A DNA stretch of 64,000 nt from Nannochloropsis oceanica (taxonomy: Eukaryota > Sar > Eustigmatophyceae > Eustigmatales > Monodopsidaceae). Positions 1,418-51,334 of the stretch are shown in pieces. Below the pieces are notes generated by a model. It made no database searches. It had not been told where the DNA came from and saw only the letters and a program-made list of their open reading frames with translations. A program made the position numbers and the translations under genes. Location: NCBI GenBank assembly GCA_004519485.1, contig CP038106.1, forward strand, positions 569,501 through 633,500. The letters run 5' to 3'. How positions within the stretch are numbered: position 1 is the stretch's first letter; each line of letters starts with the position of its first letter.

Positions 1418-3062
1418 TTGATTAATTGCAAATCGCTTGTCCTTGCCCTATTTTTCCCCTGCAGTTTTTCAACGCGCAATGGGTCGGCCATAGTCAAGCT
1501 CGACCCGGCCGCCCCTCCCGAGCAACCCAACTTCACGGACTTCTCGGGGTTCCCCTTACTCCGACACGGTCAGTTATCATGTGTAGATACAGACACTTTG
1601 GTGCAAAGCATGACCTTGCTTCGAAAGGAGCTTGGGAGGAAGGATGAGGCATCAAAAGGGGGAGGGCCGCTGAACGCCTTATTCTGTCACACGTATGCAC
1701 GCCGCCAACTCGAGGCAATGGTGCAGGAGCTGGACCAAAGAGATGCGATGATGGACCAGTACATAAAAAAGGAGAAATACCTATTTTTGTCTTCAGAAGC
1801 AGCTCCTCAAAGAAAGAAAACAGCTCGTCCCATGGCAGGACAAATGTGAAGACTTGGCCACCACTATTATCTCTAGCTCGCTTCCTGAAAGCACCATCGC
1901 CACCGCCTGCCACATCTGCTGCGTCATCTTCTTGGCCAGAGGTTCAGTGCATAGTAACCAACGTTTTTGCTGATGCATTTCCTGACTGGTGGCGCTGGCC
2001 TGGGGATATTCAGGGTGATGACGACAGCAGCATGGATGCACCACCATCCAGGCCGCAAGACGAAACATGGCATATGCTCTGGACCTGGAGCAAGCCCCGG
2101 ATGGAGTCTGCGTCTCTGCTCGCCCACCAGCAAGTAAATCATATTCCCCGCTCGCAGGATCTGACGCGCAAGGACTTCCTCGTCCGGCACTTGGACAGGC
2201 ACATGGCTTTGAGCAGCAGCAGCAGCAGCAGCACGGGTGGTTCGCGAGTTTGCGGCAGGCACCAAAAATCCTCCTCTCTACTCAGTTACACAAAGAAATC
2301 GACATATCCTTTCTTCCACATCATGCCTCAAACGTTTGCTTTGCCACAGGCCTACACAAGCTTCGTCGCCACCTTCCGCGATGGGTCCAGCTTTTCCTCC
2401 TCCTCCTCCTCATCTTTCTCGGACAACATTTCGATTATTAAACCTTTCAAGGCTTCGCGAGGACGTGGCATTAAACTGGTGAATGGTATTCTGGACGTTA
2501 TCCATAGCGAGCCTGTCGTAATACAAAGATATGTGAGTAAGCCTTTGCTTCTGAACGGCTACATTGACCTGCGGCTGTACGTGCTCGTCAATTCCTTCCA
2601 ACCGACCCTCGAGGCCTTTACACAGAGGGTTTTGCTCGTTTTTGCACGGCGCCCTTCGAGCTCTACGACTTGAGCAATAAACTTCCACACGTCAGCAACA
2701 GTAGTGTCCAGACACGCAAAACCATTCGAGGTCAAGGCCCGCCTCTGCCGGGCAACAACCCTCTCCGATCAGCACCATCTGCGGATGTGGGCGGAAGCAA
2801 GCTGCGGCTGTCCTACCTGTGGCAGCACTTGAGGGATGGCCACGGGATTGACACTTCTGCTGTATGGAGTGAAATTGTGGGTATGATTCTTAAGAGCTAG
2901 GTGTGTGTGGAGGATGTCATTCCCTCACAGCCGGGGGCTTTTGAATTATTTGGGTTTGATGTCTTGTTGGACACGGAGCTTCGGCCCTGGCTATTGGAGG
3001 TCAATGCCTCGCCTTCCTTGGCACGAGACCATACGTTGGACAAGGAGGGAAGGAAGCTTTGA
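1418..3062 (+). pseudogene. Tubulin tyrosine ligase-like (TTLL) family, decayed
   Basis: TTLL enzymes add glutamate, glycine or tyrosine to tubulin tails, mostly on axonemes and centrioles. A coiled coil (about 1580-1930) precedes TTL-domain blocks in the family order: VNHIPRSQDLTRKDFL near 2130-2175, FHIMPQTFALP near 2320, ASRGRGIKLVNG near 2453, DLRLYVLVNSF near 2567, and [11 protein letters not shown]...LLEVNASPS near 2940-3020. These blocks do not share one frame. Frame 2 passes to frame 3 near 1795, to frame 1 between about 1930 and 1960, and to frame 3 near 2610. An in-frame TAG lies at 2898-2900 inside a conserved stretch (IVGMILKS-stop-VCVED). No convincing ATG or splice pairs repair this. 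A 24-base GT-AG segment at 2877-2900 would remove the stop but is implausibly short. Neighbouring genes are intact, so a pseudogene is likelier than sequencing error. Confidence 0.8.
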
Positions 3063-3445
3063 TCATCGATACAATGAAGGTGGTCATGCGGGAGGAACAG
3101 AAGTAGGATAAGAGGGAAAGTGGGGAGAAATTGGGAGGGAACCAACGATTGTGTCCTGGCACTAAGGCTCACCGTAAGGTGTAGGCCTATAAGCGTCGCT
3201 ACGTACGCACAACAAACAAGATAAATGCTTTCAAGTGAGAAAAAGAAAACGAGTGTCAAATGGTTTCGATGATAAGAAAACGATTTACACATTGATGACT
3301 GAAAAAATCTCGGCTTCGCTCGCTCCGCTCATACGATACCTGATTTCTTTATTTCGCGTCTAGAAAACACTCCCTCTCTTTTTTCTTTACAACCTGGTAC
3401 ACCCACAAAATCGTTTTGCTCCATCCCTCTCTTCGCTATAAAACT
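3063..3445. other. Tail-to-tail spacer
   Basis: This spacer lies between the decayed ligase gene and the oppositely oriented transhydrogenase. It is relatively AT-rich in its second half and would hold both 3' untranslated regions. No gene is seen. Confidence 0.5.
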
Positions 3446-5276
3446 TTAAGGCGACGACGCCGCCCCATGGTCCGACAAGTCAGTATACCCCGCCAAGGCC
3501 AACCTCTTCAATCCATTAAACGCCGCCACCCGATATGACTCGGCAAATGTCGGGTAATTGAAAACATTTTCCGTCAAAAAATGCATATCCAGATTCATAT
3601 CCATCGCTACTTGGCCCACATGCACAATTTCCGTCGCACTCTCACCCATACAATGCACGCCCAAAATTTTCAATGTCTCCGCATGGAACAAAATCTTCAA
3701 CATCCCATTACTCCCCCCCATCATCTGCCCCTTCGCCAACTCATCATATCTCGCCACGCCCATCTCATAGGGAATCTTTTGCTGTGTTAACTGCTGCTCC
3801 GTGTAGCCCACCATCGAAATCTCCGGGATTGTGTAGATTCCATACGGGAAACCCCCAAAGGCCTTATTTGCCTCCTCCCCCTCCTCCCCCCACATGTGAT
3901 GCGCCGCCATCCGCCCCTGCTGCGAGGAGGTCGAGGCCAGGGCAGGAAATCCAATACAATCGCCAGCGGCATATAACCACGGGACAGATGTTTGATAGTT
4001 ATCATTGATCGTCAAAAGCCCTCGTTTATTCACCTCCAAACCCGTCTTTTCCAAGCACAATCCCGCCGTGTTCCCTTGCCTCCCCACGGTGTACAACAGG
4101 CAATCCCCCCTCAGCACTTTGCCGCTCGCCATATCCGCTACCACATGATCACCCTCAATCCGAGCACTCAACACCTCCTCCCCCAACAAAAACCGAGCCC
4201 CCTTCTGACGCATTTCATATTCCAAGCTCTGGATGATCTCTTTATCCGCGAACGTCAAGATATCCGGACGTCCATCAATCACCGTTACCCTCGACCCGGG
4301 GATAACATTAAACATACTCGCATACTCCATCCCAATCACGCCCGCCCCCACCACAATCAGCTCCCGCGGTACCTTCTGAATCGACCCACTGAGCAAATCA
4401 TCACTATCAATGATGTGCACCCCGTCAAATTCAAAATCGGGCCTGCGGGCTGGCGTTGTCCCCACAGCCACCAACATCTTCTCCGCCGTGAACGGCTTGC
4501 TATACGGTTCCACCTCAAGCCCCGCCCCTGGTGTACCTATGGCGTGCTCTTTCTTTCGGTCTTCAATCTCCAAGGCCGCCGAGGTGACTTGCACCGACTT
4601 CTCTTCCCCCGTAAATTGTGCCGTGCCATAGATGTGGGTAATGCCGTATTGCCGAAAACGATTCCGCATCACATCCTTCTCGCCCTTTACCACCATTGAG
4701 ACACGATGCAGTATCCCCTCCATACTGATGCGATCCGATGGCGCGTAGACCTTGCCGTAAAAGCCTTGGTGCCGATAGCCCGTCAGATGAAGGACGGCCT
4801 CTCGAAACGTTTTGCTAGGTATCGTGCCCGTGTTGACGCACACCCCACCAAGCATACCGGGCTTGTCAATGACAGCAACCCTCTTGCCACGTCGGCTGGA
4901 AGAGATGGCGCAGGCTTGGGCGGCTGTAATTGTGGGGAAGGAGGGAGGGAGAGAGAAGGGAGTGAGACGGTTGAATGTTAATCGAATCAAAATCAAACCC
5001 TACTCTACTCAAATGAGTTAACTAACCTGGACCAGAGCCTATTACAATAAGATCAAAATCAGGTTTGCCCGCATGCGCACCAGCGGTGGGAAAGGGGTTG
5101 GCGTTGGCGGGATGTATGGGGACTTTAGTGGTGGCCTCGTCGTCCTTTTTCGAGGCGCTGTCGTTGGCAAATGCACGGCAACTCTGCTGGGACATTATGG
5201 GGAGGCGGACGCGCGGTAGCCCCGCAACGACAGGTAGCAGACGTCTCCTGACTGCGCTACCAGCTGCCATCAGCAT
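3446..5276 (-). CDS. sthA: Soluble pyridine nucleotide transhydrogenase (SthA type), mitochondrial form
   Basis: This flavoprotein is predicted to transfer hydride between NADPH and NAD+. Exons are 5027-5276 and 3446-4923, with the 103-base intron splitting the GSGPAA codons; the product is 575 aa. Residues 1-36 are arginine-rich and end in CRAFA, a likely mitochondrial presequence. The FAD-binding GSGPAA is near residue 80. GGVCVNTGTIPS (109-120) has threonine where dihydrolipoamide dehydrogenases carry the second redox cysteine, the mark of SthA rather than a disulfide reductase. A second dinucleotide motif, GAGVIG, is at 276-281, the AAGDCIG FAD motif follows, and the dimerisation domain is C-terminal. 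SthA is best known from bacteria, so a eukaryotic organellar copy is notable. Plastid targeting is a less likely alternative. Confidence 0.88.
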
Positions 5277-6139
5277 GGTTAGTGCTGCTGCTGTGTGTGG
5301 AGTCGTGTATGGGCAAGGGATGAGGGGAAGGTGAGGGGCGAAAGTTGGTCCTCCGAAAGGAATGCAAAGTAGCCCGTGGAAGAGGCGAGCAGTCCCGCCG
5401 CCGTGGTATGCTGCAGACTGTACAGCTATTAATACTGGAGGCAGCATCTCCCTGCCTCTTATGTGTGAGTGTGGCCAAGGCCTTGAAGGGCCAGGACGGC
5501 GGCAGTTATGACGAGGAGATGCGCGACCAGAAAGCTCCACGCACGAGACAAGTGCCATCACCTTGACCCGACATTCGCCGCGTCCATGAGGGCATTCTGT
5601 ACGTGTGTTGTGGAGGTGGACATGGTGCGATGGTGTATATGTGTGGCATAGTGGGCACCGTTGACGAGATGCTCTGAGCATTTGGCGAGTGACGGCCACC
5701 TGCGGTCAGGCGGCCTTCCTCCTGAGTCGGGAGCGCGTGTTCCAGAGTGTATGTGTTGAGTGTTAATGATGGTGCTGTCCGTATCGCTGTAGTGGTGGTG
5801 CAGGTATTGCTTGAGCGTTATCAAGGAACAAAAGGAGACACGCCGGTCCCGTCAAAGCCGATGTGAGGACCTTGCTTGACCTTGCTTGGCCTTAGTAGTG
5901 GCTTCTAGTTTGGCTTAAGGGAGGGGGTCGACGCCTCCAAACCCCAACGCGTGTTTTTGTGTCCGTATCATTTATTTTCTTCGACTTTTGCATTTGTTCT
6001 CACTCTCTTTCATTTTCTGGGCAACTCCTACTTTGACCTTGCACTCATTGCCTCATTAATGTATCTTGTGGCCTGCGGGAGCTGGCTTCACATCCCGACC
6101 ATTCTCCTTCCACGCTCTATATACACCACTCTCCACATG
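5277..6139. other. Upstream region of the transhydrogenase gene
   Basis: About 860 bases lie between two minus-strand genes. It would hold the transhydrogenase promoter and 5' untranslated region, then the 3' end of the COP9 subunit gene. The short open frames are not conserved-looking. No gene is seen. Confidence 0.5.
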
Positions 6140-8337: not shown

Positions 8338-11300
8338 ATGCTCCATGCGACGTACAAAAATTTGGCGGCCTACGCCCCTGTCACCGCAGGAAATGTCACA
8401 GTTGTGGCTGCAAGCGGTGTCAAAGACGAACCAAAAACGATATGCGTGCTATCTGTGGCCGACACAGGCTTGAAAGACGAGTTTGTTGAAGTCCACTCAT
8501 CCTCCTCCTCCTCCTCCTCCTCCTCCTCCTCCTCCCTCTCTCGTCTGGCTCTTGGCGGCCGTCACCTTGCCGTCGGCTTCGAGGGCAACCAAAAAATGTT
8601 GCGCCTATATGACACCACCACTCCCTCAAAAAAAGAGGCGGTGGATCTCAAGTACCCTGCCGAGGTCCAGCAGCTATGTCTCAATCAGCAGTATGCGGCC
8701 GCGCTGCTGGCGACCTTACCACCGCAGGTGGTCCTGCATGCCCTGGAGGAGGAAGCGCCTTTTCGTAGGAAGAACAAGCTTTCTGTTGTGATAGGATTAA
8801 ATTGCACAGGGCTAGAACAATGGTTTGGCATAGGTAAGTGCTTGATCTTGCCACGGGGGGAAGCACCCAAAGTGACAATTTTTCTTTTCCCCATCCCTTC
8901 CCTCAGATAATAGATGCCAAGGAGCCGTGCTCACTTGTATTGCCCTGACAGATCAGTTCCTCTTCTTGGGAGATGATCATGGCAAGGTACATTTTTTTGT
9001 TGTGCCTTTTCCGGAGCTATTTCCAATATCATTCTCATCCTCTCTCTTGTTCCTACGAAATGCGCACACTCTAGATTCATGTCTTCTCACTCTCCGCATG
9101 GAATCACTTTTCAAGTGGAGACACCCACTCGTTAAAGTCGCCCATACAGAGTCTCCATCCAAACGCGTTAGGCACCCGTGTCCTGGTCATCGATGGAGGC
9201 CGCGCTGGCCATGTGTATGATCCGACCGCCCACGACGCCAAGCACATGTTTCTGCCTCTGCCCGATTTTCCAACAGAGCAGAGGGTGACCAAGGTATTAT
9301 GGGACTTGGTCGACCGGCACGCAGTACATATTGTGGGTGGCAACAATCATCTACATACGTACGTGTATGCGGCCTCGAGTATGGCTGGGCCGAGCGTTGC
9401 CAACGTCGGACCTCTGGACATCTCGGAGGATGGCGATATTACAATGAGCCCGTGCGCCTACGATTTCGTAACCGCCGAGCATGGGATGCCTGTCCTTGCC
9501 AACGGGGGGCGTCTGCTGTGTGTGGGGCGAAAGAAGCCTCGATGCGTCCTGGCACCGTCCTACCCCGATGATGGCACAGGTGATGAGGTGGAGAGTGTCA
9601 CTGGCATGACGGAGCGCTTCAAAAAGTGCCTTGCCCTTTTGCATTTTGGCGACGCCGGCACGTTTGCCCGCCGCCTGAACAATCGAGCATGCTGGCTAGC
9701 CTTGAGCAGCAAGGCAATAGAACTCTTAGATCTTCCCACGGCCATTTGGGTGTATCGCACTCTGGGGGACGCCGGTATGGTGCTGGGGTTGGAGAAGATC
9801 CAGCAGGTAGAGAATCAGCACCTGCTCGCGGGTCACATAGCCGTACTGTTTGGGCGGTATACCCAAGCCGAAAAGCTATTTTTGGCCTCGACCTACCCGG
9901 CTGCCGCTGTAGACATGCGCCGAAACTTGCTACAATTTCAGCAGGCTCTGAAGCTGGCGCGTGTCGTGGCCCCTCAAGACGTGACACATGTGGCTGTGCA
10001 ATATGGGCAGCAGCTTGAATTGCAAGATGGCGACTACGATGGCGCTCTTCGTGTTTACGGGATGGTAGAGGGACAATTACTAAGTGCTGTTGGTAACTTG
10101 TCGCCGCAGCATCACTCTTTCCTCCTGGCGACTTGTAGAGGCGGGAGTGCCCGGTGCATGCTACGGATCGGCCATGTGCGCAAGGGCATGGCTCTTGCAC
10201 TGGCTTTGCTAGAGTGTGGCGACATGTACAACCACAACGGAACACAAGAGTCTATAAGTAATCTGCTGCAGCTCGCTTTAGTAGAGTGTGCGCGCATCCT
10301 CGAAAGTACCAAAGCTACCTGGCTCGAAGCCGCAACCTTATACAAACGCGCAGGCAAAGACGAACACGCCGCCAAAATATATATTGAAGCCAAGGCGTTA
10401 GAACAAGCGGCGCCGCTCTTGGACCGAGTGGCGCTGCCGAAACTGCACAATTTGTTTGCCAAGGCATGCGAGAAAGAAGGCAACTATGCCAGTGCTATTA
10501 CAGCGTACGAAAAAGCTCACGACCAAGACAGTGTGATCCGCTTATGTTTGCGAGAAGACCCCCCGAAGGCATACGAGTTGATTCGGGAGACGGCGTCCGC
10601 CACGGCAGCTCTTTTGGCTGCCAAATATTGTCGAGAGGTTGGGGACATGGTTCACTGTTTGGAATTTCTGTTATTGGCACAGCAAAATGAGGAGGCCTTC
10701 GAGATTGCCAAGGCTGGTCAAGTTGTAGAAACGTACGCCCAGCTCTTGCTGACCCAAGGCTGTGACGTGCAACACATCCTTGACTATTACAAACAAAGTC
10801 GCGCATGGACCGATGCCGGGCGCTTGTATCACCGTCTGGACAAGCCAGCCAACGCAATACCATTGCTGCTGCAAGGCGGCGCAGTCGAGGAGGCAATTCA
10901 AATTGTGACAACGGTAGAGGACGCCTCGAAAAAAGAAGCCAAGGACATTATGGTGGCTTTCCTCAGTGATGGCCCGGGCAAGGACTGGCGGTACCTGGCC
11001 CAACTCTTTTCTGCGCTGGGTGATGGTCCCCAGGTGGTCCGTGTTGCATTGTCGCGAGCTGACCAAGAGCAAAGGACTGAAAACTATGTCGAGGCACGCA
11101 GCATTGTCCATGCAGCAATTCATGACCTACAGAGCTTGGGCGTGCCTTTGTCGCTTCTTGGGCCTGTTCAAACGAGATTCATGGTCCTACATTCTTATTG
11201 CCTCGTAAAAGTCCTGTTACGCCATGATCACCACGAGTCAGCCGCCCGTCTACTGCTGCGTGTGGTCAAGCATGTCAAATGCTTTCCAGGCCAGCGAGTG

Positions 11301-11810
11301 CGCCTTCTCACGTCTGTCGTGCTCCAATGCCAGCGGGTTGGCCTGACCGCAGCCGCCTATCAACACGCGTTGACTCTGATTGCAGATCCTCAATACCAAC
11401 AAGGGATGGATTCCAAGATCCGCCGCAAAGTCGAGAACATCGTGCGCCGACATGGGGCAGAACAAGAGGACGGCGGCAGCACTGGCCTCGATGACGAAGC
11501 CATGTCACCTTGTCCTTTCTGCAACACCTTTCTTCCATTGACTGAGCTGCAGTGTCCAGGCTTGCATGCAACATCGATCCCGATGTGCATTGTCTCAGGC
11601 CGCCATATGGAACGAGAGGATTGGTGCCTCTGCCCCAACTCACGATTGCCGGCTCTCTACTCTGCATACCTTGACTACATAGAGATAGAAGGGAAGGAGG
11701 CCAAGGAGGTGGTCGACCCTGTGTGCGGGAGACCTGTGACCGCGATGCAGCTGATACGCGTAGCGCCCGCAGGTGTGGATGCTGCTCTTGCCAAGTACAA
11801 GGCAAATTGA
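8338..11810 (+). CDS. IFT144: Intraflagellar transport protein 144 (WDR19), N-terminally shortened
   Basis: This is an IFT-A subunit for retrograde transport in cilia. Exons are 8338-8833, 8907-8986 and 9075-11810, all in phase, giving 1103 aa. The start corresponds to roughly residue 370-390 of human WDR19 (about 1340 aa). The second beta-propeller is present, with a poly-serine (TCC)n insert at 8497-8535, and then a long TPR-type solenoid. Matches to WDR19 include WVYRTLGDAGMVLGLEKI, LLAGHIAVLFGRYTQAEKLF and GQRVRLLTSVVLQCQRVGL. The first propeller cannot fit before the start, because CSN7 begins 378 bases away. The C-terminal zinc ribbons keep CPFC but read CPGL, CPNS and DPVC where WDR19 has CPGC, CPHC and CPMC. 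The solenoid frame is open, so the gene is either used in altered form or recently released from constraint. Confidence 0.85.
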
Positions 11811-11929: not shown

Positions 11930-14289
11930 TCAATATAAATTTGGCCGCTGGGGCAAACACAAGTTGAAGAAGGTATTTTTCGAGAAACTATCGGGAGTCC
12001 GCCATCCGCATGCGGTGGCTCGATAGCCTTCCAGGGCAACCTCCTTGCATTGAATTGTTCGTAGGTCCTCAGGGCCCATGTAGTGGGGGTCTAAGATCAA
12101 GAAAGCCACTTCATTCGTGGCCTCATTCCAGTCCACGCCCAATAAAGTGAAAGCTAGACTGCCCCCACCCATCATGATGGGCGTTCCTTGCGTGTCAAAA
12201 TGTGCGGCCAATTCTGCAGCTCTTTCCGCAAGCCCGGGTCCCGAAGGCACTGACAAGGTTCGCCACTGTAAGCCCAAACTTTGACCGAGAAAGAAGCCTA
12301 CTTCCATGCTACCAATCCATTCTCGCGATCCCACAAAGCCGGCGGGCTTGTCCCCTATGGTGACAAGAACTTGTTGAATTTCTCGATGAGTAGGCACTGG
12401 CTCAGTGGTGTAGTGCGACAGCCGGAAAAAGGACACGAGAGTCTGAAGTGATCGATAAGCACAACCCCAGCCCTTGTCATCCACGTGATCTTGCATGTAA
12501 TGATAAAATAGGTAGGATCCATCCACTAGGTGTCGCGTGCCACCAGTGACGCTCGAAGCAGGCAGGCCGAGATGCACATCTTGAAGCCGCTGCGGACCCC
12601 TGGTCAAGATTTCTTTACCGCCGTCTTCGACAACATCAATAACTTGGGAAGGAGCAAGGCGAAGCGCACACGTAGAGCGGAAAAAGGGACGATTTAATGG
12701 CAGCCGCAATCGCTCGTGAAGCGCGCACCGGACCGCCATGAGCTCAGGCCGCCCGTCTTCCTGACCTGGGGCATGTATCCAACCACCGTTTGACCCGCTT
12801 GTGTCGCTGAGTACAATGAGGATAAAAGGCACAGTAATGGAAAGTGGGAACGCGAGTGGAGACGCACGCTCGGAATTCAATGCAGTAGAATCGAATGCAT
12901 GGTAGGATAGTACCTCAACCGAGGAAGAGCCATCACCGTCCGCTGCCGTCGCCGCTGCACACATGATCCGGGCGTACCTCCATGCTCGTTGTAGTCCTTT
13001 GACAAGACTGCTCACCATGATCGAAAATGGTTCTGCGTTGGCCACGTAAACCAGTAGCTCGCCCTTGGCTCGTCGTCGGACGAGTGGCCTGGGAGGCGAG
13101 GGAGCTCCGTCAATACGTGCTACGAGGCCGTGATTGGAGGCGCTGGTTGGAGTAGATGATTGCAGTTGAAGCAGCAGCACGTCCAGTAGGGGACCGATTG
13201 ATGTGTCACACACAAGGTCCTCGAGGGAGGCTGCTGTTGTCACGGTGCTGGTTTCATCAACAGCATGTCCAGTTTGACCGCTGCCCTTCCCGCCGCCTCC
13301 TTTCTTTTTATGCCTCTTGATCTTTTTGACGGTTCTTCTGGTAGTACGTGTCGCATCTGTCGTTGATGATGATGCTGCTGCTGCAGCTGCTCCTGCCATG
13401 GCCGCATGTGCGAAGATGTCGTGGAATGTGACCCCTGAAGACGGCAGTGAGGAGGGGAAAGAAGAGGAAGACCAGGGGCCGTGAAGAGGCACTGGCAGAA
13501 TCATCGGCCCCGTTGCCCCACTGGCATCGCTCGCTGCTGTGAAGAACAAATTCACGTTGTCGCCCGGAAAATTGCTGTCAAGAGCGTTGTCGTCATTTTG
13601 CATGGAGCGATTCCATGAGAGGCGCAACACGACGTACTCCTTTGCCAGCAGGTCCTGCCCTTCCACGGCTTCGGTAGCGACCGAGTTTCCCTTGTGCGTG
13701 CAAAGAATGCATTGTTAATAGAAAAGAGAGACAATTTGGTCTATTTGTAACATTTATCCTGCTACCGTTGAACAAAAAATCCTCCAGTGTGTCTACCTGC
13801 GTGTCTTGGAGAGAGACTGTGCCTAAGGCGCATTCGGCAAGCAAGCTTGACGTTGACAGCCCCAGCTCCTTGCACACAGCCGCTGTCCGTACAAAAGAAT
13901 CGCCATAGATGCCTACAATTTCTAGACCTGCTGGCAGGTGATGCTCGAGCTCCTGAGTATGGGAGAGAGAGGAGGTGAGAGGGTCCGTGCGTGCGTGGGT
14001 GGGCTGCGAAGAACACCCCGAGAACGCTTCACTTGCTCATCCTCCCAATGATAGAGTAACCTTCAACCAGCCGTCTTACCTGCATATCCTCTCTCCATGT
14101 CCCACAGCCCGGTCGCTTGGCCAGGGCACCCAAGATATCCGGAAAGCTGCGGCCAGGACATGCAGCGTGGCCCAGCAGATAGCCTTGCTCTTCTCGTTCG
14201 GAGCCGCCCACAAGCCAAAGCAAGGTACCTTGGGCGATCCGGCAAGTAGATGCAGGCTGCTCCGTGGGCTCGTTGTTGTCCTCGGCCAT
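11930..14289 (-). CDS. UFSP2: Ufm1-specific protease 2
   Basis: This cysteine protease matures UFM1 and removes it from targets at the ER. Exons are 14080-14289, 13752-13952 and 11930-13690, giving 723 aa. The second donor (GTTACA) is weak but is the only one that keeps phase. The catalytic C-terminal domain has DKGWGCAYRS with the nucleophile at Cys547, SREWIGSMEVGF, then LDPHY with Asp671 and His673. Together these form the UFSP C78 signature. The N-terminal half carries a lysine-rich, alanine-rich insert (about 13290-13420) of low complexity. The start is the ATG opening MAEDNNEPTEQ; no earlier in-frame ATG is seen. It ends 119 bases from the convergent IFT144 gene. Its presence implies that a UFMylation pathway operates in this alga. 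Confidence 0.88.
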
Positions 14290-18162: not shown

Positions 18163-20684
18163 ATGGTGGAAATGAATATGGAAATTTCAGGCCAGGATTA
18201 TCCCTTGTATCACGGTGGGGAGGAGCAAGGTAAGGCGGGGGACCCAAACTGGCAAAATGTACGGTCGTTGATGTGGATACCGGGCGAGGCGCTCTTTGTT
18301 GTGCTCTTCTCATCCCTTGGCTTTCCCATGTATATATATACAGGGGAGGAAGACGGCATGGGACCTGTCTCCTACCCGCAGCGACCGGGGGAAGTCGAAT
18401 GTCAGTACTATATGAAGACGGGGACGTGCAAGTAAGTCGTTTCGGACAATTTTGGGGTGGATGATGGCCTGGCTGAGAGCGAAGGATGAAGAATTCCACG
18501 AAGAGCACCCAGTGGGCTCTCTTCTGTGAAACAGAGTGTTAAAATGCGCGCGGAGAAGGGAGAGGTTGTTGGACAAGCGCAGAGTGGGGGGTAAAATTTC
18601 ACCGGGAGTGACCACCCCTCCCCTTGCTAAACGGATCTCCTCCCTTCCTTTTTCTCATTTTACTTTGCCTCAGGTATGCAACAAAGTGCAAGTTTCACCA
18701 CCCGCCAGATGTGACACCTAGTTGGGGTACGGTGGCGCCGGCGACGGACGTGACGATCGGATTGAACAAGGAGGTGAGATCCTTACTTTAGACCTCATTT
18801 ACGTGATGAGAAAGGACAAGAGGTTGTGTGGGAGAGAAGCGTGGACACAACTAAAAATTAACAGGGAAATTATAGGGAGGGTCAATAGTGATGCTGAAGC
18901 TGACGCTGCTCATTTGTGGATGTACAGGGGGGGAAAACATCGGGAGAAAGCGAGGCATGACGGAGAATGAAAACGAGGGACGGGAGAGATGGAGGGAAGG
19001 AGAAAGAGAAGGAAGAAAAGCGCCGTGCGCTCGTCGTCGACTCAATTTATCAAACAATTTTTCATTTACAAATCAAAACAGTCCTACCCACGGCGGCCGG
19101 GGGAGACGCAGTGCACGTTTTTCCTCAAAACGGGCACATGCAAATATAAGATGTCCTGCAAGTGAGTGTGTACTGGGGCGTGTGGGGGAGGGAGACAGGG
19201 AAACATCGCTGGTACGAGTGCCATTTTAAGACGGAAAAAAACGAGAAGGGCCGAGGGTCATGGTGGATGATGTGGTGCGAATCTGGCGCTAAATCTGTCC
19301 TGTTGCTGCCATCACTCATCCTCCCTCCCTCCCTTCTTCCCTCCCTGCCTCCGCCTTTAGATTCGACCACCCCCCTGAAGCAATTCAACAAACCCTCCAG
19401 CTGCAATCCACGCCCTATCCATTGCGTCCCGGGGAGCTTCAGTGCGCCTACTACCTGAAGACAGGGAAATGCAAATTTGGCGCGACCTGCCGGTTTGATC
19501 ACCCGCCCATGGCCCCCGAACAAGCTGCAGCGCTTGCGGCAGCAGCCGGCCAGTACGCAGCAGCTGCAGCAGCAGCGGCTGCTGGGGGTGTGGTAGGGAA
19601 TGGAGTAGGAGTAGGAGGTAGTGGGCACGTACCACCGCCGGGAGGAGTGGGAGGGGCGGGGGGGCATGCGGCCCATGTGAGGGGGGGGCCAATGGGGTAT
19701 TATGCGCCTCACGAGGGAGGGGCCGGGGGAGGCATGATGGGAATGGTGGCCATGCCTGGTGGGCAGCATATGGTGGGGATGGCGGGGTTCGCCCCCCCTC
19801 CACCTTCCCATTCGTCCCAGCTCCCGCAGCGGCCGGGGGAGAAAGAGTGCACGTTTTTCCTGCGGACTGGCCGATGCCAGTATGGTCTGCGGTGTAAGTT
19901 CCACCATCCGATCGAGAAGGTGCCCGGGGGCATGGTAGCGCTGAATGGGATGGTCGGTGCCCCCCCCCTCCCTCACGCCCCACCTCATCCCCACATGGGA
20001 CCTGCTTTTGCTCACCCTGGTGTGGATGGCTTGTACCCGTCGCCGTACGGCCTCCCTCCCTCGCTCCCTCCCTCCCTCCCTCCGCATGGGCACCATGTCC
20101 AGCAGATGCGAGGGGCAGGGGTTGGGGGAGGGAATGGTGGTATTGGAGGAGCAGGGGGAGGGGGGGATGGACAGTTGCCGTCGAGGCCGGGGCAGGAGGC
20201 ATGTTCGTTTTATTTGAGAACGGGCAAATGCTCTTATGGCTCTGCTTGTCGATTCGATCACCCAAGAGTTGGAGGAGGGTTGTCTAGGGAGACGAGTGTG
20301 GGGGAGGGAGGGAGAGATGGTGGAAGGGGGGAGGGTGGACAGGCCGAGAATGGCGGGAGGGGGGCGGGGAGGGAGGGAGGGAGGGAGGGGGGAGCGGGGG
20401 CAGGTAATGGAGGGGGGGATGGAGGGCAGGGTGGCTACTCGTACCAGCAGGAGGGCGTGCACATGTATGGCGGTAGCCAGCAGGGGGGCTATGGCGGAGG
20501 GGGCCCAGGAGGGTACATGGGCGAGGGAGGGGTGGGGGGAGGAGGAGGGGGTGGAAATGGACATTATCCGGGGGCCGAGGCGTACCAGCAGGCGGCGTTT
20601 ATGGGCTACCCGCCAGTACACCACCACCAGTACGTGGCTCAGACCCAGCAGGCCGTGTACTCGAACTATCGGCAGGCGTCGTAG
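18163..20684 (+). CDS. CCCH zinc-finger RNA-binding protein with five fingers
   Basis: Exons are 18163-18229, 18344-18431, 18674-18773, 19082-19161 and 19361-20684, giving 552 aa. There are five C-x8-C-x5-C-x3-H fingers: CQYYMKTGTC, CTFFLKTGTC, CAYYLKTGKC, CTFFLRTGRC and CSFYLRTGKC. Each is preceded by RPGE/RPGQ and followed by KFHHP or RFDHP. This layout matches plant and heterokont ZFN-type CCCH proteins, which bind RNA or DNA and act in mRNA control. The first two fingers are each interrupted by a phase-2 intron at the same place, after the second cysteine or at the third, which suggests finger duplication. The C-terminal tail is Gly-rich, with GREGG-type repeats from GGGAGG tracts and a few Tyr/Gln motifs. 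An AATAAA signal follows at about 20802. The target RNAs cannot be inferred. Confidence 0.88.
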
Positions 20685-42095: not shown

Positions 42096-42454
42096 AAGTG
42101 GTGGATGTTTTACTCTCGACGCGCTCGCCCGGACACAACAAGCCGGCGGCCCTTGTGCTTGTCCTTGTGCTTGTCCTACAAGTGGTGCGTGCATTTAGAG
42201 TGGTGATCAATCAAGCTTCTAAAACGTGCTGGCGTTCGCTTCGATGATTCTCGAGCGATTTTCTCGAGCGAGTGCCGATGATGCAGCGAAGACCGATGAT
42301 TACAATATCACCATCTCCTCCTCCCCTCTCCACCACCACACCATTCACCAGACTCTCCCGTCCCCCACAACCACAACAACAATAGAAAGCTAGTACCATC
42401 ATACGCCAAGCTGAAGCTTGCAACAGCAGCAGCAACAGCACCGCCAGCACTAGC
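42096..42454. promoter_or_regulatory. Shared upstream region, aldo-keto reductase and NCBP1
   Basis: About 360 bases lie between divergent starts. The right end is CA/CAG-rich and is probably the NCBP1 5' untranslated region. Confidence 0.45.
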
Positions 42455-45244
42455 ATGAGCCACTACGGCGGCGGAAACTACGGACCACCGCAGGGAGGCG
42501 GAAGAGGCGGGTATCAAGGAGGAGGCGGCGACCGCAAACGTTACCGTGGGGACGACTACCAGGGCGGCGGTGGAGGAGGTAGAGGTGGGCACTATGGCGG
42601 AAGTGGGGGTGGTGGGCGCTATCGTAGCGGCGGTGGTGGACGGCACCAAGACCGTCGAGGGGGAGACAGGGGCCCGCCGGCCAAGAAGCCCAAGACCAAG
42701 GAGGACGAGATCAAGGCGCAGATGAAAGCACTCTTGGTGCGTGTCGGGGACTTCCATCACATAAGCACATCACTTTCGAGTCTGGAAGAGAACGTCGAGG
42801 GGTTGGCGGGGGCGTTGGGGGACGAGCTGGCAACTTTTGGGGACTTTGTCGCTGACTTTGTCTTGACGGCTGCGGGACAATTGTCGTTACAAACCCCTGT
42901 GTACGCCACCCTGGTGGGGTTGCTTAATGCACGCGACGAGGAGTTCGGGGCAAAGGTAGTTAAGGGCGGTGCGGTGCGGTTGGACGCGATGATTCGGCAG
43001 GGTCGGTGGGTGAACGCCAAGCTGGTGTTGCGCTTTCTGGCCGAGTTGGTCAACGCGCGTGTGGTCAAGGCAGATGGAGAGGGAAGCCTAGGTGAGCTCC
43101 TGACAACGTTGCTGGGGCCTTTGAATGAGCCCGATGAAACTGTTCCGCCGGCGAGGAAAGATTTGTACTTGTACTTGGTTGTCTCGGTGTTGCCGTGGGT
43201 GTGGGATGCCTTGGCGAAGGAGTGGCCTGATGGATTACCTGCACTATTGGAGACGGCTTTTGCTTATGGGGATCGACGTGTGCCTTTGTTCAAAAAGCAG
43301 GGCGTGCGGTGCGTGCTTGAGGCTGGCTTGGACGACGAGGATGAGGAGAAAGATGACGAGTCAGAGCCGGCGCAAGATTCGATTCAAACGGCTCTGGGGG
43401 TAGCGAAGGCCCTGGCTGCCACCCTGGACGAAGCTCAAGAATCCATTGAAATCAACTCCATAGTCAAGCCGTGGAGGAGCGTCAAAGACGATCTCGCCCA
43501 AGGCATCCGACACACCATCCCCATCATCGTTCTGCCAGACCCTGACCCCCCCGCCTTAGCCGCAGGCGCCTTCCCCCTCCCCCTCCACCCCTGCTTCGCG
43601 GAGTTCGATCTTTTCGATGCAGAGAGCGGCGGACAAGCTGCCTCCGTTGCTGCCCTCGGTGAAATCGAGCGCTGGGTCCTCCGAGAGTACCTCAAGGACA
43701 GCCTTGTGACCTTCCGCCCATTTGTCAATGAAGCAGGGAACAAGCGAGGCTCCTTTGTCGCTGAAGTCGAACAGCTTTATTCTATCTCTTACCTTGCCCC
43801 TCCCGATGTTGCCACGGAGCACCTCGTTGCCGAGGCCTTGCTCCTGTGGCTGCTGCAGCGTCCAGGACGTGACTTGGCGTACCTCCATCGGTTGTTGCTT
43901 CAAGTGGTCCAGACGCCCAAGGCGGCCGGCTCCTTGGCATTAGGGCTGCATTTATTGTTTCAAGACAATTTGGACGTGCTAGATCACGGGGCAATCGTGC
44001 AGCTGGCGGATTGGTTTGGCGCCCACTTAACCAACACCTCGTTTGTCTTCCCCTACTGGGATGCGTGGGCGGGGCTGCTTGCGGAGCAGGAGGGGGAGGA
44101 GGGAGGGGAAGATAGCCCACAGCAGTTTTTCTTGAGACGGGTGTTGGACGTGGCAGCGAGGCAGACTTATGTGGCAAAGGTGAAGGAGCACGTCCCTTCC
44201 TCCCTGCATGCGTATGTGCCCGGGGACCCTTACTCCCTGTCACCGTACCTCGCGCGTGAGGCGGCGGTGGAGGAGAACGTGGAGACAGATTCGCCCCCGA
44301 CTCGTATCTTGAAGGAGCTGGTACGTCACTTTCGGGCTGTGCTACAGGGAGAGATCTCTCCGAGCGAGGTACAAGACTGGCTCGATAATGTCGCCAATCC
44401 TCCTGCAGAGCTTGCGGCGAGGGATCCGTATTGGAGAGTGACGTTGGTGACGCATGCCTTGTCGAGGATTAGCGACGACACGGTGGCACACTTGCCGGCG
44501 TTGCTTGAAAAGTGCTTGGGCTGGTTCAGGGTATTGTTTGAAGCGGACGAGCACCAGCTTAGGATGGTGGAGGCCTTTTCGGAGGTTTGGGTTGGGTCGC
44601 CACAGATGTTGCTGTTGGCGTTGAATGCCGTGATGAGGATGCATATGGTGTTGCCGGTTAATGTCATGGGGTGGTTGGTGAGACCGGAGGTGGCAAGGAG
44701 GTATGGCAGGGATGGGTTGTACTGTGATTTGTTTTCGGACGCCATCGACAGGTCTTTGGAATCGGTCGCCGTGTACGGTGAGTTGATTAAGAGGGCATTG
44801 GGACCTCATCCACCTGTGGCTGAACAGGGTGAGGAGGCACGGGCGAGGCAATTGGCGGGGGAGGAGACGATGGAGCATGGAGTGGTGGCAGTTGAAAATG
44901 CGCAGGATTTGGTTTTGGAGCTGGTGGAGGGGTTATGCAAGGTCTTGGCAGAGGGGTTGGGATCGGAGGAGGAAAAGGGAAAGGAGTGGGTGAGGGCGGG
45001 ATTGAGTTATTTGAGGGGGAGTTTGCAGACGTTTTTGAAGTTGGAGGAGAAGGGGGTGAATAGGGCGATTCCCGGGACGGAGGCTGTCTTTGACATGGAG
45101 AAGGTGGAGGAGGCGGTGGGGGATCTGGAGGCGGTGCCCGCTGCGTTGCAGGAAGTGCTGAAGGATTCACGGAGATATGTGGAGGAGAGGCAGGTTTTGG
45201 GGGGAGGATTTTCTCATGGGCAGGTGTTCACTGATGAGGAGTAA
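42455..45244 (+). CDS. NCBP1: Nuclear cap-binding protein subunit 1 (CBP80)
   Basis: CBP80 is the large subunit of the nuclear cap-binding complex and links capped RNA to splicing, export and decay. It is a single uninterrupted exon of 929 aa. Residues 1-75 are an RGG/Gly-rich, RNA-binding-like extension followed by PPAKKPKTKEDE, a probable nuclear signal. The MIF4G-like helical repeats follow, with SLEENVEGLAGAL, QTPVYATLVGLLN and KLVLRFLAELVNARVV, then SVLPWVWDALAKEWPD. Later segments include DSLVTFRPFVNEAG, a third helical domain around AVMRMHMVLPVNVMGWLVRP, and a C-terminal helical region ending in FSHGQVFTDEE. The Gly-rich N-terminus is unusual for the family. The absence of introns over 2.8 kb confirms good assembly here. 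Confidence 0.9.
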   Translation: MSHYGGGNYGPPQGGGRGGYQGGGGDRKRYRGDDYQGGGGGGRGGHYGGSGGGGRYRSGGGGRHQDRRGGDRGPPAKKPKTKEDEIKAQMKALLVRVGDFHHISTSLSSLEENVEGLAGALGDELATFGDFVADFVLTAAGQLSLQTPVYATLVGLLNARDEEFGAKVVKGGAVRLDAMIRQGRWVNAKLVLRFLAELVNARVVKADGEGSLGELLTTLLGPLNEPDETVPPARKDLYLYLVVSVLPWVWDALAKEWPDGLPALLETAFAYGDRRVPLFKKQGVRCVLEAGLDDEDEEKDDESEPAQDSIQTALGVAKALAATLDEAQESIEINSIVKPWRSVKDDLAQGIRHTIPIIVLPDPDPPALAAGAFPLPLHPCFAEFDLFDAESGGQAASVAALGEIERWVLREYLKDSLVTFRPFVNEAGNKRGSFVAEVEQLYSISYLAPPDVATEHLVAEALLLWLLQRPGRDLAYLHRLLLQVVQTPKAAGSLALGLHLLFQDNLDVLDHGAIVQLADWFGAHLTNTSFVFPYWDAWAGLLAEQEGEEGGEDSPQQFFLRRVLDVAARQTYVAKVKEHVPSSLHAYVPGDPYSLSPYLAREAAVEENVETDSPPTRILKELVRHFRAVLQGEISPSEVQDWLDNVANPPAELAARDPYWRVTLVTHALSRISDDTVAHLPALLEKCLGWFRVLFEADEHQLRMVEAFSEVWVGSPQMLLLALNAVMRMHMVLPVNVMGWLVRPEVARRYGRDGLYCDLFSDAIDRSLESVAVYGELIKRALGPHPPVAEQGEEARARQLAGEETMEHGVVAVENAQDLVLELVEGLCKVLAEGLGSEEEKGKEWVRAGLSYLRGSLQTFLKLEEKGVNRAIPGTEAVFDMEKVEEAVGDLEAVPAALQEVLKDSRRYVEERQVLGGGFSHGQVFTDEE

Positions 45245-45856
45245 AGAAGGAGCGTAGTGTGGGAGGGAATATGGAAGATTAGAGGAAGGTGATGTAAGAA
45301 GCAGTAAAGTGTGGAAGGGTGAAAGAGGGGGATATAAAGAACAAAAGCAATGGATAACATTTGAAGATTGAGAGTGCTATTTTGTACGTCCTGACGTGAT
45401 TTTATTTGTGTAAGTTTGTTGCTGTTGGAGGCCGACTCTTGCGGCTCGGATCGTGGCCAAACCGGTTCTCGAGGCTCGAGGCTCGAGCACACTTTTTCCA
45501 TGACCAATAATTATCATTATTACGCCTAAGCTGTAAAGTTAAGTAACAGATTTTCAACCTATGATTGTAAATGGCTGTGTACAAATCCGAAAAATGCCCC
45601 TGGAAGGCTCAGAAGGCCCCAATGAGGTATAATAGGGAACGAGAAACACAATTAAAGTCCTCGATCAATCGTGATGATACCATTCCAAAAACCCACAGCT
45701 CTGGGAGCATGCGAAGCAGCCCATGCCAACAAGCAGAACACAATCGAAAGGCATGCTTGGTGGGATTGGCGGGGTTTTGTCTTGTTGTCATGGTAGAATT
45801 CGGTCAGCAAGTGCCTCATCCATCTCTTTCTCTTTCCCTCCCTTGACCAGGCAACC
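45245..45856. other. Spacer between NCBP1 and a small membrane-protein gene
   Basis: About 610 bases. A short triplicated CTCGAGG motif lies at about 45468-45488. A pyrimidine-rich stretch ending in CCAG at about 45850, just before the next ATG, may be a splice acceptor of a 5' untranslated intron. No gene is seen. Confidence 0.45.
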
Positions 45857-46507
45857 ATGACGATGGGGGCGGGCCTTTTCGGGGCCTCCTTGGGCATCTT
45901 CGTCAAGATGGCCAGCAACAGCATGCGCAAGATACCACTTCGACGAGGTAAATAATTGGTAGTTGGTGGAGTGGGGGCGTGGGATCGGGTGGGAGAAAGC
46001 TACAGGAGAGGAGCCAAGTCAGGCAGGAAAGCGAAGGACTTCTGGGTACGCCCTAGTAGCCGCACGCGTAGCCCTGCACCAGATTAAAGAACACCCCCTT
46101 TGGTAGAAAAAGACGAGTAGCATGTGGGCTGCAAGCGGATTTCAGAGCGAGAAAGGGTTGGTAGAAATGGTGGACATCCCTAGCCCACCTGCGGGTCTCA
46201 TGATGCGACTACATGCATGCCCTCACCTTCAAGAAACATAGCATTGCGTGATTGCCAACACCCAAGAATCCAGATGACTCACCAAAATATATTCTGCTCC
46301 TCAACTCCTTTCCCTCCCCTTCTTTCGAACAAAACAGAGCCGTGGGACTACCCCTTGTTCATGATAGTGGGCACATGGGTGGGGTACAAGTACGTCTCGC
46401 TGGAAGCGAGTCTGACGGAGCGGGTGAACGAGAAGCGGGCCGCATTGGAGAAGCCTCCTGTGGAACTGGGTGGGATTATGACGACGCTCAAGAAGGCGGC
46501 GGAGTAA
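45857..46507 (+). CDS. Small membrane protein, possibly mitochondrial
   Basis: Exons are 45857-45947 and 46338-46507 (phase 1, an intron of 390 bases), giving 86 aa. The N-terminal segment GAGLFGASLGIFVKMASNSM is a moderately hydrophobic helix, and DYPLFMIVGTWVGYKYVSLE a second. A charged helix (ASLTERVNEKRAALEK) and a short tail follow. The size and layout suggest a small subunit of a membrane complex, perhaps respiratory, but I do not recognise a family. The intron is long compared with the coding part and with other introns here. Confidence 0.65.
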
Positions 46508-47123: not shown

Positions 47124-49770
47124 CTACCTCTCTCCCTCACGGTATGATTGCAGTGATGCATAAGGGGATACGCCTAACCTCACTCCTGGCGAACTAAATC
47201 TATTTCGTCGACTATTTGGAGTAAGACCCTCCTGGTACACAAACGCATCGTCCCCCACATCCCTTGTTTCGCCCCCTCCCACGCTTATTTCATCCGGAGC
47301 GAGCACATCACCGCAGTTGTTGCTGCTGCTGTAAATCCAAGCCCCAAGACTGCACAAAATGAGGAGGATGACCAACAACACAGCTTCTCCATCAAAATCC
47401 TCCTCCTTATTGACCTCTGTTTCTCCCGTAGGCTCGGCGTCGCTATCACAGCTTGGTCGATGAGCTGGAGGACTTGACACAGCGGCGGCAGCAGCAGCGG
47501 CAGCAGTCGTACCAGCACCAACGTCGCGCTTCGCAAGCTTACTTTTCTCCCTCTTCTCATCCTGCCGCAACTCCTCCTCACTGTCGTTGTCCTCCCCCTC
47601 CTCCTCATTTTCGCTACTTTCAAAACAGAAGGAGCAACAGGTGTAGGAGGAGTTGAAGGGGGGGCGCGAGACCAGTTCGGCTTGTTATTCTTTCCTCCCC
47701 TTCCCAGCAGAGACGTGTGCGAGAACAAGGACACCTCTTCCACCGAAAACCGCAACTGTGAGCGTGCCTTGTTACCGGCATCATCCTCCACACTCAAAGG
47801 CAACACAAAAAACTTCGTTTTCTTCCCAGCCTTCACCGCCGTGTGGTTCTCTACATCTTCTTCTACGTCTGGTCCCATTACCACTCGCCGAGTCAAATTC
47901 ACCCGCGTGCCGTCCGGCAAGTCATCATAGGCCTCAAAACAAGGCCACCCGTCTGTACACAACAAACCCCTTCCCTCCCCCCCTCCCCCCACGGTCAACT
48001 CCCTGAGCTCCTTGCCATAGCCACGAGCAGCACATCCAGGAGGCGCTGGCGTGCCCGGTCCTCCCAGCCCCTCACATTTACATGTTTGAAACGTCTTCTC
48101 AAACGAAGGCACCACCAACACAGGTGCTTTCACATCCACGCAGCCAGTGCCGTTCTTCGCATTCCTCGGGGTAAAGTTCCCTTCCTCCTTGAGACACGTG
48201 CTGTTGCCTTCTGCACCATCTCCAATGGTGCCAGGGCGGCACGAGCACGTATATCCCCGTTGATGTTGGAGCATTTCGCCCACTTATGACAGCGTGGCCG
48301 CCATTTGTTCCATTTCGCATCGGTGGGTCGGAGGCTGCACTCGTTCAAATCTTTCACGACAATCGTTCGGCGAATGGTCACAGTGGGGGTGCTGGTCCAG
48401 GGGGCCTTGACGGTGTAGCTAATGAAATAGGTACCAACATCGTCGAGGGTATCGGCATTCAAGCTGGGGGAGTCGTAGGAGATAGAGATGTACCTAACGG
48501 CAGGAGGAGGGAGGAGGGAGGGAGGGAGGGAGGGTGGGAGGGAGGGGGGTGAAAGGTGATAATGATGTTCTTGCCGCTGCAACTGCTGCAGCTACTGGGT
48601 CTACTGCAAGGAATGGGATTTCCAAGCATTAACAATTCTTTCGCCTTTTTTTTACACCTCACGTACCTTGGCTCGGCTAACATCTCATTAGTGTCCATGA
48701 TGCGGACTAAGCGATCTTCGTAAGCGTCCCCCTGCACCACCGTCACTACCTCCGGGCCTTCCAACAACAACGGCACACCCGCCTTATCCACACATCAACC
48801 CTGTTCTTCTACGTAGCCTGCATCGCACACGCAGCGGTGGGAGTTGGCTGCATTTTGACACACGGCGTGTTCCCCACAATCTTTGCCCATGCACCAATCC
48901 GTGACCTGTCAGGAGGGCAAGGGAGGAAGTAAAGGGGAGGGAGGGAGGAATGCAGTAAGTGTCGTGAAATTCAAGGAGACGACGCGTCATATTACAAGAA
49001 AACTGCCTTACATGAAAAAATTACAGGATTGAATCAAGCAAGCAGGGCAGTGACATCCTCCCTCCTCTTCTGCTTACCTTGGGTTGACACCCACAATATT
49101 CATCCGCCTGCATCTTCCCCAACAAATTTCCAGCCTCGTCAAAGAAAGTAGGCGGAGGCTCACGACCCCGGGGACAATGCCGCGCAGTCCCGAAGTACCC
49201 GTCTGGGCAAACGTAGCCATACAAATCAAGCTCCTGGGAGATAAGGGTACAGTTGGTGTTCTCCACACACTGGCCTTTGCAATTGTCGTTCTTCCCAATC
49301 GGTGTTGAATGGGTGCATATAAAGCTATGTTTACAGGCATCTCTACCCACGATACCACAGCAGGACTGCGTGGAAATGGCTCCGGTGCAGCGGCCTTGAC
49401 CTGTCCCTTGCTCTCCTTCAAACCCCGATGGGCAAACGTAATGGTAGCTTTCCTCCGTGTCTTCGCAGCGAGCCGACTCATGGCACTGATGCCGCCAAGG
49501 CACGTTTTTGGGAGCCATGCATTAATTTACTGGAGTTATCACGTAGTAAAGCAAAAAGGATGCTTCATCCGGTTGGATGGTGCTTTTGATTGAGTGCTTC
49601 CCCACGCGCTCCTTCACGTCCTCGCCCTTGATCTCAAATCCCAACTCCTCAAATTTTGAAACGCGCCTCACCTCTGCCACGGAGCGCCGTAACAACTCCT
49701 ACTACACGGTTTCACGGGGCGTGTACTATTTGAATTTGAGCGACTCATCATTACCATCCTCGTTGATAGC
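47124..49770 (-). pseudogene. EGF-repeat surface protein, mastigoneme (SIG1/Ocm1)-like, decayed
   Basis: The minus strand encodes a type I membrane protein layout: three cysteine-rich EGF-like modules, beta-sandwich-like spacers (e.g. LLLEGPEVVTVVQGDAYEDR, DVGTYFISYTVKAPWTSTP), a DLNEC calcium-type EGF start, then a spacer with FQTCKCEGLGG and DGWPCFEAYDDLPDG. An acidic linker precedes one membrane helix (AVLLVILLILCSLGAWIY) and a cytosolic tail. Spliced gaps are plausible at 48900-49077 and about 48493-48670. The reading is interrupted by in-frame stops at about 49726-49728, 49699-49704 (two), 49522-49524 and 48795-48797, the last between cysteines 5 and 6 of an otherwise perfect EGF module. 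A base is missing in a G run at 48255-48258, and a second frame change occurs at about 47600-47660. The module order resembles heterokont mastigoneme/SIG1 proteins; that identity is inference. More 5' sequence may reach about 50280. Confidence 0.7.
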
Positions 49771-51334
49771 CTTGCACTGAGCAGCGGGAAATGCAGTATG
49801 GCAAGGTATGGCACAAAGGCAGCATAGAGGAAAGAAGCAATGCCAAATGTGGCGTTAGGCGCACCCTCATGGCGTGTGGTTACTTTGGCGTAGTCTACCG
49901 TGGTGCGCCTGTGCATCGTGGTGTTCATGTGGTGGAAAAATGAGTGAGCATGCGTGCTGTTGTGTGCGAGCAAAGCGGCCAGACATCATAAGGGCACGCT
50001 TTAAAAGCATCATTACCCTCCAGCACCACCAAGGCAAGCGACACTGCCATGACTGGTAATCTTTACAGGACGAACGTGTCTGGAGCCACAGACACGCGCG
50101 GTGTAAGTGATATCGGTAGTGTTGCTCCATTATGTCCAAGTAATCGAGCAGGGGATCCCTACGTCGGGAGAGTTGAAAAAGGGGGGGGGAAATGCGTGGC
50201 AGGCCCGGCACTCCAGAACGACTGTGCAAGAAGGTTGAAACAGAATATTTTAATGACGGCATGTTAGTGGAGTAGGCCAACAAGGTTCACAACAGCATAT
50301 TAAATAGCGAAATCTTGGTGCATCCGATTCGGCCGGCTTCACACCCCAACGGCCCAGCGGCCCATTCTATTATACCCCCCACGATTTTTTTTTAAGAAAC
50401 TGCCGACATATAACCGCAATCTGTTCACTCACATATCTGACAATATGTGTTTTGACTGTCTGCCCGCAAAATGGTAGAGCAAGGCCATTACTTATGTCGA
50501 CAACCTCCTCACTAGAAAATAATGTACAATAATAAATGGCTGGTGTGGAATTGGGAAACCCCCTCTCTCTTATTGTTTGAGATCCGTTTCGTTTTATATT
50601 TTCAATAAATCGGATATTTTCATCCCTGTCCCCTCTCACGCAGTCATACTTGTCCTGCAAGTTGGCGCGATGCCTGGTCTCCGTGAGTGCTGATTTCCTA
50701 TTTTCCCTTTTCCAAGGCTCCTCTGACCTGGCCCGACCCCTTCACAATTCTATCCCCGTATCCGGTGCTCGTTGCCGGTGCTGATCGCCCCCATTGCTGC
50801 TGCTCCACCATCCCTGTTTGCTGCTTGTTTCCTGCACCGGCTTGTCTTCCCTATGTTCTTTGTCCCGGCATCTCTCCCCAAGCAAAAGCGCAAGTAAAAG
50901 AGACAAGACAAAAAGCAACAATCGACGAATAGGCTTCACAAAGCTTTTACAATTATAGTTGAGCAAGTTGAATGAGGCGAGGATTGAATCTCTTACACAG
51001 GAAAAAGGTTGGTGTGCCGGGCACGAAGCCCAACCGGGCACGCACACAAGGTGTGTTTTTTGGAAGAGGGGGGGGAGGGGAGTTCATGCATTACAATGCA
51101 ATCACCACTCGAAACAAACAGGAGAGTAGAAGGTGGGGGATAGAAGAGGAAGAGGAAAGAGAAAGAGCGCACAGGGGAGAAATGGGGGAGAGGAGTCGGG
51201 AGTTCAAAACACAGGAGGAAACTTGTGGTGGGTGCAAAAAGCTTACCTACACAGGCGCAACCGGTTGGAGGCGAAGAGAAAGGACAAGGGCTCCCCTCTT
51301 TGAACGTGAACGACAACAGACACACACAACATAC
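49771..51334. other. Region between the decayed EGF-type gene and CDC20
   Basis: The left part (to about 50280) may contain further 5' remnants of the EGF-type gene on the minus strand, e.g. a frame reading LEGNDAFKACPYDVWPLCSH, but no continuous reading exists. The rest is the downstream region of CDC20, with G-rich runs near 51066. A possible tiny spliced frame starts near 50670 on the plus strand and is not called. Confidence 0.4.

Follow-up and report, generated by a model that had tools for sequence, protein, structure and literature searches.

The genome of the alga Nannochloropsis oceanica probably encodes a pared-down flagellar system, with outer dynein arms only, that is kept for an unseen stage of the life cycle. 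In the stretch of DNA analysed here (the window; 64,000 nucleotides, bases 569,501–633,500 of contig C1, N. oceanica chromosome 1), genes for a tubulin tyrosine ligase-like (TTLL) protein and for an EGF-rich surface protein are broken, and that for IFT144 (WDR19) is shortened yet open; elsewhere in the genome, outer-arm dynein heavy chains and axonemal and centriolar genes lie in open frames. The survey covered 29,264,788 bases in 32 contigs. In the assembly of Guo et al. 2019 (PMC6610115), 87.1% of BUSCO genes are annotated, so a gene for which no match was found is not always truly missing.

Features of the N. oceanica window, numbered from its first base
Feature	Position	Strand	Basis or remark
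TTLL pseudogene	1464..3106, approximate	+	Pfam TTL matches in two frames
TTL domain within TTLL pseudogene	~2,125–3,050	+	Pfam
Pyridine nucleotide-disulphide oxidoreductase, intact neighbour	3449..4999	-	Pfam scan
IFT144 exon 1	8338..8833	+	GT...AG splice model, open frame; starts inside second propeller
IFT144 exon 2	8907..8986	+	Splice model
IFT144 exon 3	9075..11810	+	Rest of propeller 2, TPR region, degenerate zinc fingers
MIF4G-like protein, intact neighbour	42386..45241	+	Pfam scan
EGF-rich surface-protein pseudogene (earlier label: mastigoneme-like)	47124..49800, bounds approximate	-	EGF-type matches, lesions

The TTLL gene is confirmed to be truly broken, with its domain still well recognisable. 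The Pfam TTL profile is matched over positions 8–145 in one frame and then over 135–208 and 227–269 in a second frame, the overlap in profile positions across the two frames placing a first frame change near 2,616–2,650; an in-frame TAG (2,898–2,900) lies between the latter two parts of the profile, and a second frame change lies near 3,055–3,060. Introns were considered as the cause of the frame changes and ruled out: the profile is continuous, with no gap large enough, and the stretches are contiguous, hence the frame changes are not explicable by introns. The start of the gene model, at ~1,464, is a guessed splice site, the N-terminal exons lying outside the model. Across the genome the TTL family gave seven matches in five loci, with a stop inside only one of the seven, that in the window; the matches at the four other loci, one of which is in two pieces, are free of stops. 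TTLLs are not confined to axonemes, and a TTLL by itself is not flagellum-specific.

The EGF-rich surface-protein gene is likewise confirmed as truly broken. Its in-frame TAA (49,524–49,522) and in-frame TGA (48,797–48,795) are firm, as is a change of frame near 48,255; another change of frame, near 47,665, is likely, whereas the TAGs at 49,728, 49,704 and 49,701 could all three sit inside a short intron. Many other apparent breaks were set aside, being readable as GT...AG introns with CT-rich 3' ends. The similarity of this putative mastigoneme-like protein to known families consists of EGF-type matches only: one, to Plasmod_Pvs28 (31.8 bits), lies above its cut-off, and those in the remaining pieces fall below theirs; a hydrophobic segment is apparent near the C terminus. 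A PDB search with one EGF piece gave no match, and a 203-residue query piece, used to look for a paralogue in the genome, matched only itself. An EGF-rich surface protein, like a TTLL, is not by itself specific to flagella.

The IFT144 gene differs in kind: though shortened, and with its metal sites eroded, it is open. Splicing of its three exons gives a frame of 1,103 residues with zero stops and zero lesions, which in the PDB aligns best with human WDR19 (E 2.1e-121) and with Chlamydomonas IFT144 (E 2.7e-116), exon 3 by itself matching IFT144 with E 4.7e-113; the candidate interpretation of this gene as a pseudogene was rejected since the spliced frame is open. The product is collinear with human WDR19 from human residue 393 onward, and retains the family's second propeller, TPR region and C-terminal zinc fingers, the last with a match below cut-off (Zf_IFT144_1st, in exon 3). 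The other Pfam matches in exon 3, i.e. Beta-prop_WDR19_2nd, TPR_IF140-IFT172 and TPR_IFT80_172, are above cut-off; exon 1 alone reaches 26 bits for the second propeller, where the cut-off is 27. A first propeller is lacking: the alignment begins at human residue 393, and none was found in the three upstream ORFs scanned, which are part of those listed. Alignment shows that the human zinc finger motifs CPGC, CPHC and CPMC have become CPGL, CPNS and DPVC in N. oceanica. No relatives of IFT144 were found among viral contigs.

The original prediction, made from the window's sequence, was of three damaged flagellum-linked genes amid intact housekeeping genes. With two frame changes and one in-frame TAG, the TTLL gene is indeed broken in several places, and known Pfam domains were found in all eight of the large ORFs chosen for scanning among the 82 listed. 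Two stops and one frame change bear out the claim for the mastigoneme-like gene, which was partly over-read in that its other breaks are possible introns. IFT144 has lost its first propeller and some zinc cysteines, but 'damaged' is too strong a word for a frame open without lesions, such that the window holds two broken genes rather than three damaged ones.

Outside the window, a genome search with the dynein stalk profile (PF12777) gave four candidates and four matches, all four in stop-free frames (4,546, 4,180, 1,961 and 5,053 codons, the outer-arm heavy chains being those of 4,546, 4,180 and 5,053). Heavy-chain families were assigned by best PDB match rather than by tree, from the best 60 of the 84–86 matches per chain; with Chlamydomonas names, the best matches are outer-arm alpha, beta and gamma and cytoplasmic dynein 1. 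The chain on contig C4 best matches Tetrahymena outer-arm gamma, which is Chlamydomonas alpha (2,270 and 2,178 bits), the nearest I1 inner-arm chain among its 60 best matches scoring 1,250. For the C22 chain the best match is outer-arm beta (2,092 bits), with inner-arm DNAH10 nearest among the 60 best at 1,401, and for the C20 chain it is outer-arm gamma of the DNAH5 type (2,069 bits, under the Tetrahymena name alpha), with the nearest inner-arm chain among the 60 best at 1,253. The C15 chain best matches cytoplasmic dynein 1 (1,223 bits), axonemal and dynein-2 chains scoring ~500 among its 60 best matches. No inner-arm and no dynein-2 (IFT dynein) heavy chain was found in the PF12777 search, so that, by best match, the repertoire comprises three outer-arm chains and dynein 1.

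All three outer-arm chains carry AAA motor domains and a stalk, end with Dynein_C, and have GPAGTGKT in the first AAA domain. Two of the three run full length in one exon; the C22 beta-chain gene must have additional N-terminal exons, with candidate pieces for them located upstream. At its N terminus C4 carries Kelch repeats. There are also features that speak against a pared-down flagellum: one deposit of the top-matching sequence for C4 is named 'inner arm I1' (other deposits of it being named outer-arm gamma), C4 gives no match to DHC_N1, and a motif search found three, two and two classical P-loops in the three chains.

Other flagellum-linked and centriolar genes were found, open where matched. 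PACRG (PF10274) gave one match (E 1.8e-40) in an open frame of 423 codons, and DM10 (PF06565) gave two in a single 269-codon open frame, of which the first is partial and has a plausible intron before it. SAS-6 (PF16531) gave one match in a frame of 661 codons that is open where matched, and IFT57 (PF10498) gave two in one frame of 382 codons, one above and one below cut-off. The SAS-6 match is partial (positions 55–135 of 135) and the IFT57 family also matches below cut-off in six of 14 prokaryote controls, observations that likewise count against a pared-down flagellum. Tubulin and kinesin are represented by 21 and 44 pieces in the genome, respectively; one of the 21 belongs to a divergent tubulin on contig C14, which is only ~100 bits from beta-tubulin.

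Among IFT genes, IFT52 (PF23355) had no match in the genome. Going by their names, the profiles PF24762 and PF23387 cover IFT140, IFT172, IFT80 and WDR35 (IFT121); they match only the IFT144 of the window, and these four proteins were thus not found, including the two IFT-A partners that were looked for (IFT140 and IFT121). IFT57 and IFT144 are the IFT genes seen with open frames. Guo et al. (PMC6610115) count 29 flagellum-associated genes in N. oceanica versus 104 in motile protists, with six outer-arm, four inner-arm, seven IFT-B, two IFT-A, six central-pair, two radial-spoke and no BBSome genes. Their inner-arm, IFT-B and IFT-A counts stand against a picture of outer arms only and little IFT, which may be too stark; a light chain common to other dyneins could account for some of the inner-arm counts.

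The two pseudogenes and the shortened IFT144 probably represent late trimming of a flagellar system reduced layer by layer, rather than signs of a flagellum just given up. The open outer-arm, PACRG, DM10 and SAS-6 genes would then be held by selection, with an outer-arm-only flagellum being built in an unseen stage, e.g. a gamete or zoospore, and the loss of one tubulin-modifying enzyme and one surface protein would be compatible with such a flagellum. A precedent is provided by Thalassiosira pseudonana, for which Wickstead & Gull 2007 (PMC2239267) report DYNC1H1, OAD alpha and two OAD beta chains with no IAD and no DYNC2, and which builds an axoneme in gametogenesis; this was taken to show that motile flagella are possible with outer arms alone. 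N. oceanica, by best match rather than by tree, resembles this diatom in having cytoplasmic dynein 1 and three outer-arm chains. By contrast, centric diatoms keep IFT-B, whereas IFT52, IFT172 and IFT80 were not found in N. oceanica, which retains IFT144 and IFT57, and there is no known motile cell of N. oceanica to set beside the axoneme formed in Thalassiosira gametogenesis (PMC2239267). Plasmodium builds flagella without IFT (PMC2239267); compared with this IFT-independent type, N. oceanica has open IFT57 and IFT144 genes, with IFT52, IFT172, IFT80, IFT140 and IFT121 not found. The more specific proposal of an unseen motile stage with an axoneme bearing outer-arm dyneins only, assembled with little or no IFT, is a tentative one and should be regarded as possible but doubtful.

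According to Guo et al., N. oceanica has lost both the flagellum and meiosis, the word 'pseudogene' being absent from their main text (PMC6610115), and, to the extent covered by two sources (PMC4736243, PMC6610115), no flagellated cell is reported in the genus; both count against a pared-down flagellum. In its favour, Yang et al. (PMC8570151) describe meiosis genes in several eustigmatophytes, the opposite of the conclusion of Guo et al. for N. oceanica (PMC6610115), and flagella-related homologues in Monodopsis, in which zoospores have never been documented. The main text of Vieler 2012 has none of the flagellar terms and that of Wang 2014 has one unrelated passage only; an outer-arm-only dynein set in Nannochloropsis is not described in the titles or abstracts among the matches listed for Nannochloropsis and eustigmatophytes.

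The chief rival of a pared-down flagellum is reuse outside it, i.e. that the flagellum has been lost, that outer-arm dynein, SAS-6, PACRG and DM10 now serve in division, nuclear positioning or wall building, and that the TTLL and surface-protein genes are decaying. This is rather improbable on present evidence, though several IFT genes were not found and, according to a passage in Guo et al. (PMC6610115), the ultrastructure of N. oculata is without basal body or flagellum, both of which accord with it. The kept set is coherent, being axonemal and centriolar, with three outer-arm chains and doublet and centriole proteins, and the evidence gathered shows no non-axonemal use of an outer arm. Ostreococcus is relevant to both interpretations (PMC2239267): like N. 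oceanica, it is not known to swim but has genes for axonemal dynein, and since it keeps I1 dynein without a known axoneme, dynein retention alone is no proof of a flagellum; its dynein is, however, inner-arm I1 only, whereas N. oceanica has outer-arm chains together with proteins of the centriole and the doublets.

Other stramenopiles offer parallels. In Hyaloperonospora arabidopsidis, 81% of 257 flagellar candidates are without orthologues (Judelson 2012, PMC3471859). N. oceanica is similarly a stramenopile with remnant flagellar genes, but differs in that open frames are seen for the outer-arm heavy chains and for the centriole gene that was probed. Cryptic flagellate stages have been inferred from such genes in ochrophytes (Elias 2016, PMC4736243), including Aureococcus, which like N. 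oceanica is a coccoid ochrophyte with axonemal dynein genes in which no flagellated stage has been noticed; by comparison, the axonemal heavy chains seen in N. oceanica are all of the outer arm, and for Nannochloropsis that paper notes the lack of RABL2, a point against a pared-down flagellum, and of any reported flagellated stage.

Less probable still is the original view of a single cause, in which the motile stage was lost once and recently and all flagellar genes are decaying at their own pace; we regard this as unlikely. In its favour, two broken flagellum-linked genes do lie in one window, both the lesions and the reduction of the flagellar gene set are genuine, and Guo et al. (PMC6610115) report flagellar loss. 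The two broken genes carry 7–10 lesions in 3.53 kb, where counts of 3 + 4 and 3 + 7 and the gene lengths were entered by hand rather than detected by script, and the lower count includes the likely, not certain, frame change near 47,665. At this rate, which is biased upward since the genes were picked because they looked broken, and on the assumption of equal age and of neutrality for the same time, 82–117 lesions are expected in the 41.3 kb of outer-arm genes and 6.6–9.4 in IFT144; none was observed in either. Even at one tenth of the rate, ~8 would be expected in the outer-arm genes, a level at which IFT144 says little. The outer-arm genes have therefore not been decaying for as long as those for TTLL and the surface protein, and one loss at one neutral rate misfits the data. 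At the other extreme, IFT52, IFT172, IFT80, IFT140 and the inner-arm heavy chains are without any match in the searches made, which means that the losses differ in age. The original prediction had proposed a genome-wide survey of IFT and axoneme genes as its check; the outcome goes largely against a single cause, in that open genes (the outer-arm chains, SAS-6, PACRG, DM10 and IFT57) coexist with broken and unmatched ones. The simplest reading is of losses of at least two ages, with a third group of genes still kept.

That the lesions are sequencing or assembly errors in whole genes is very improbable: several frame changes do sit at short single-base runs, but errors in run length do not account for the in-frame stops present in both genes, frames of 12–15 kb elsewhere in the genome are clean, and the assembly, if it is that of Guo et al. 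2019 (PMC6610115), was polished with long reads and ~105-fold Illumina short reads.

The pared-down flagellum remains the preferred reading. Whether it or its chief rival holds, totals of flagellar genes such as 29 versus 104 do not tell whole from broken from gone genes. If an axoneme with outer arms only is indeed assembled with little or no IFT, the dynein set of Thalassiosira would have been reached a second time and independently, here together with assembly of the Plasmodium kind, and in an industrial alga in wide use that has been called flagellum-less and asexual. Should the retained genes have some other role, an outer dynein arm active away from any flagellum would be of note in its own right. 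Nannochloropsis is a main oil-producing alga, whose breeding is limited by the view that it is non-motile and asexual; selection on its outer-arm, centriole and doublet genes, if present, would make a hidden stage with flagella, and perhaps with sex, a testable claim.

The IFT144 gene in the window encodes a shortened IFT-A subunit, the frame of which is still open. Its usual partners, IFT140 and IFT121, were not found by profile searches across the whole N. oceanica genome, and an isolated, shortened and open IFT144 may have taken on another role.

In the EGF-rich surface-protein pseudogene, true introns can be mistaken by eye for frame breaks, because long CT-rich repeat runs are present at their 3' ends. 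With regard to the gene at 11,933-13,714, an initial reading as an autophagy protease was dropped, Pfam giving Peptidase_C78. The long frame reaching past the window edge, presumably BEACH-like and kinase-like in look, contains several polyglutamine runs without interruption. GC skew is locally strong (0.337 at window 20,001-22,000; 0.313 at 44,001-46,000).

Locations of features in the window and on genome contigs C14 and C15 (L052, extracted stretch of C14)
Feature	Location	Strand	Description
IFT144	window 8,338-11,810		
Peptidase_C78 domain	window 11,933-13,714		Pfam
CT-rich runs at intron ends	window 48,500-48,560; 48,910-48,960	-	
Long frame	window 59,811-63,998		
Divergent tubulin	C14:583,117-584,997 (L052:3117-4997)	+	627-codon frame, tubulin N-terminal domain
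Tubulin piece	C15:632,012-632,155		TAG within matched stretch

Elsewhere in the genome, the TAG in the C15 tubulin piece may reflect either an intron or a tubulin copy in decay. The C14 tubulin frame scores only ~100 bits against beta-tubulin and is possibly a delta- or epsilon-tubulin; if so, basal bodies would be indicated.
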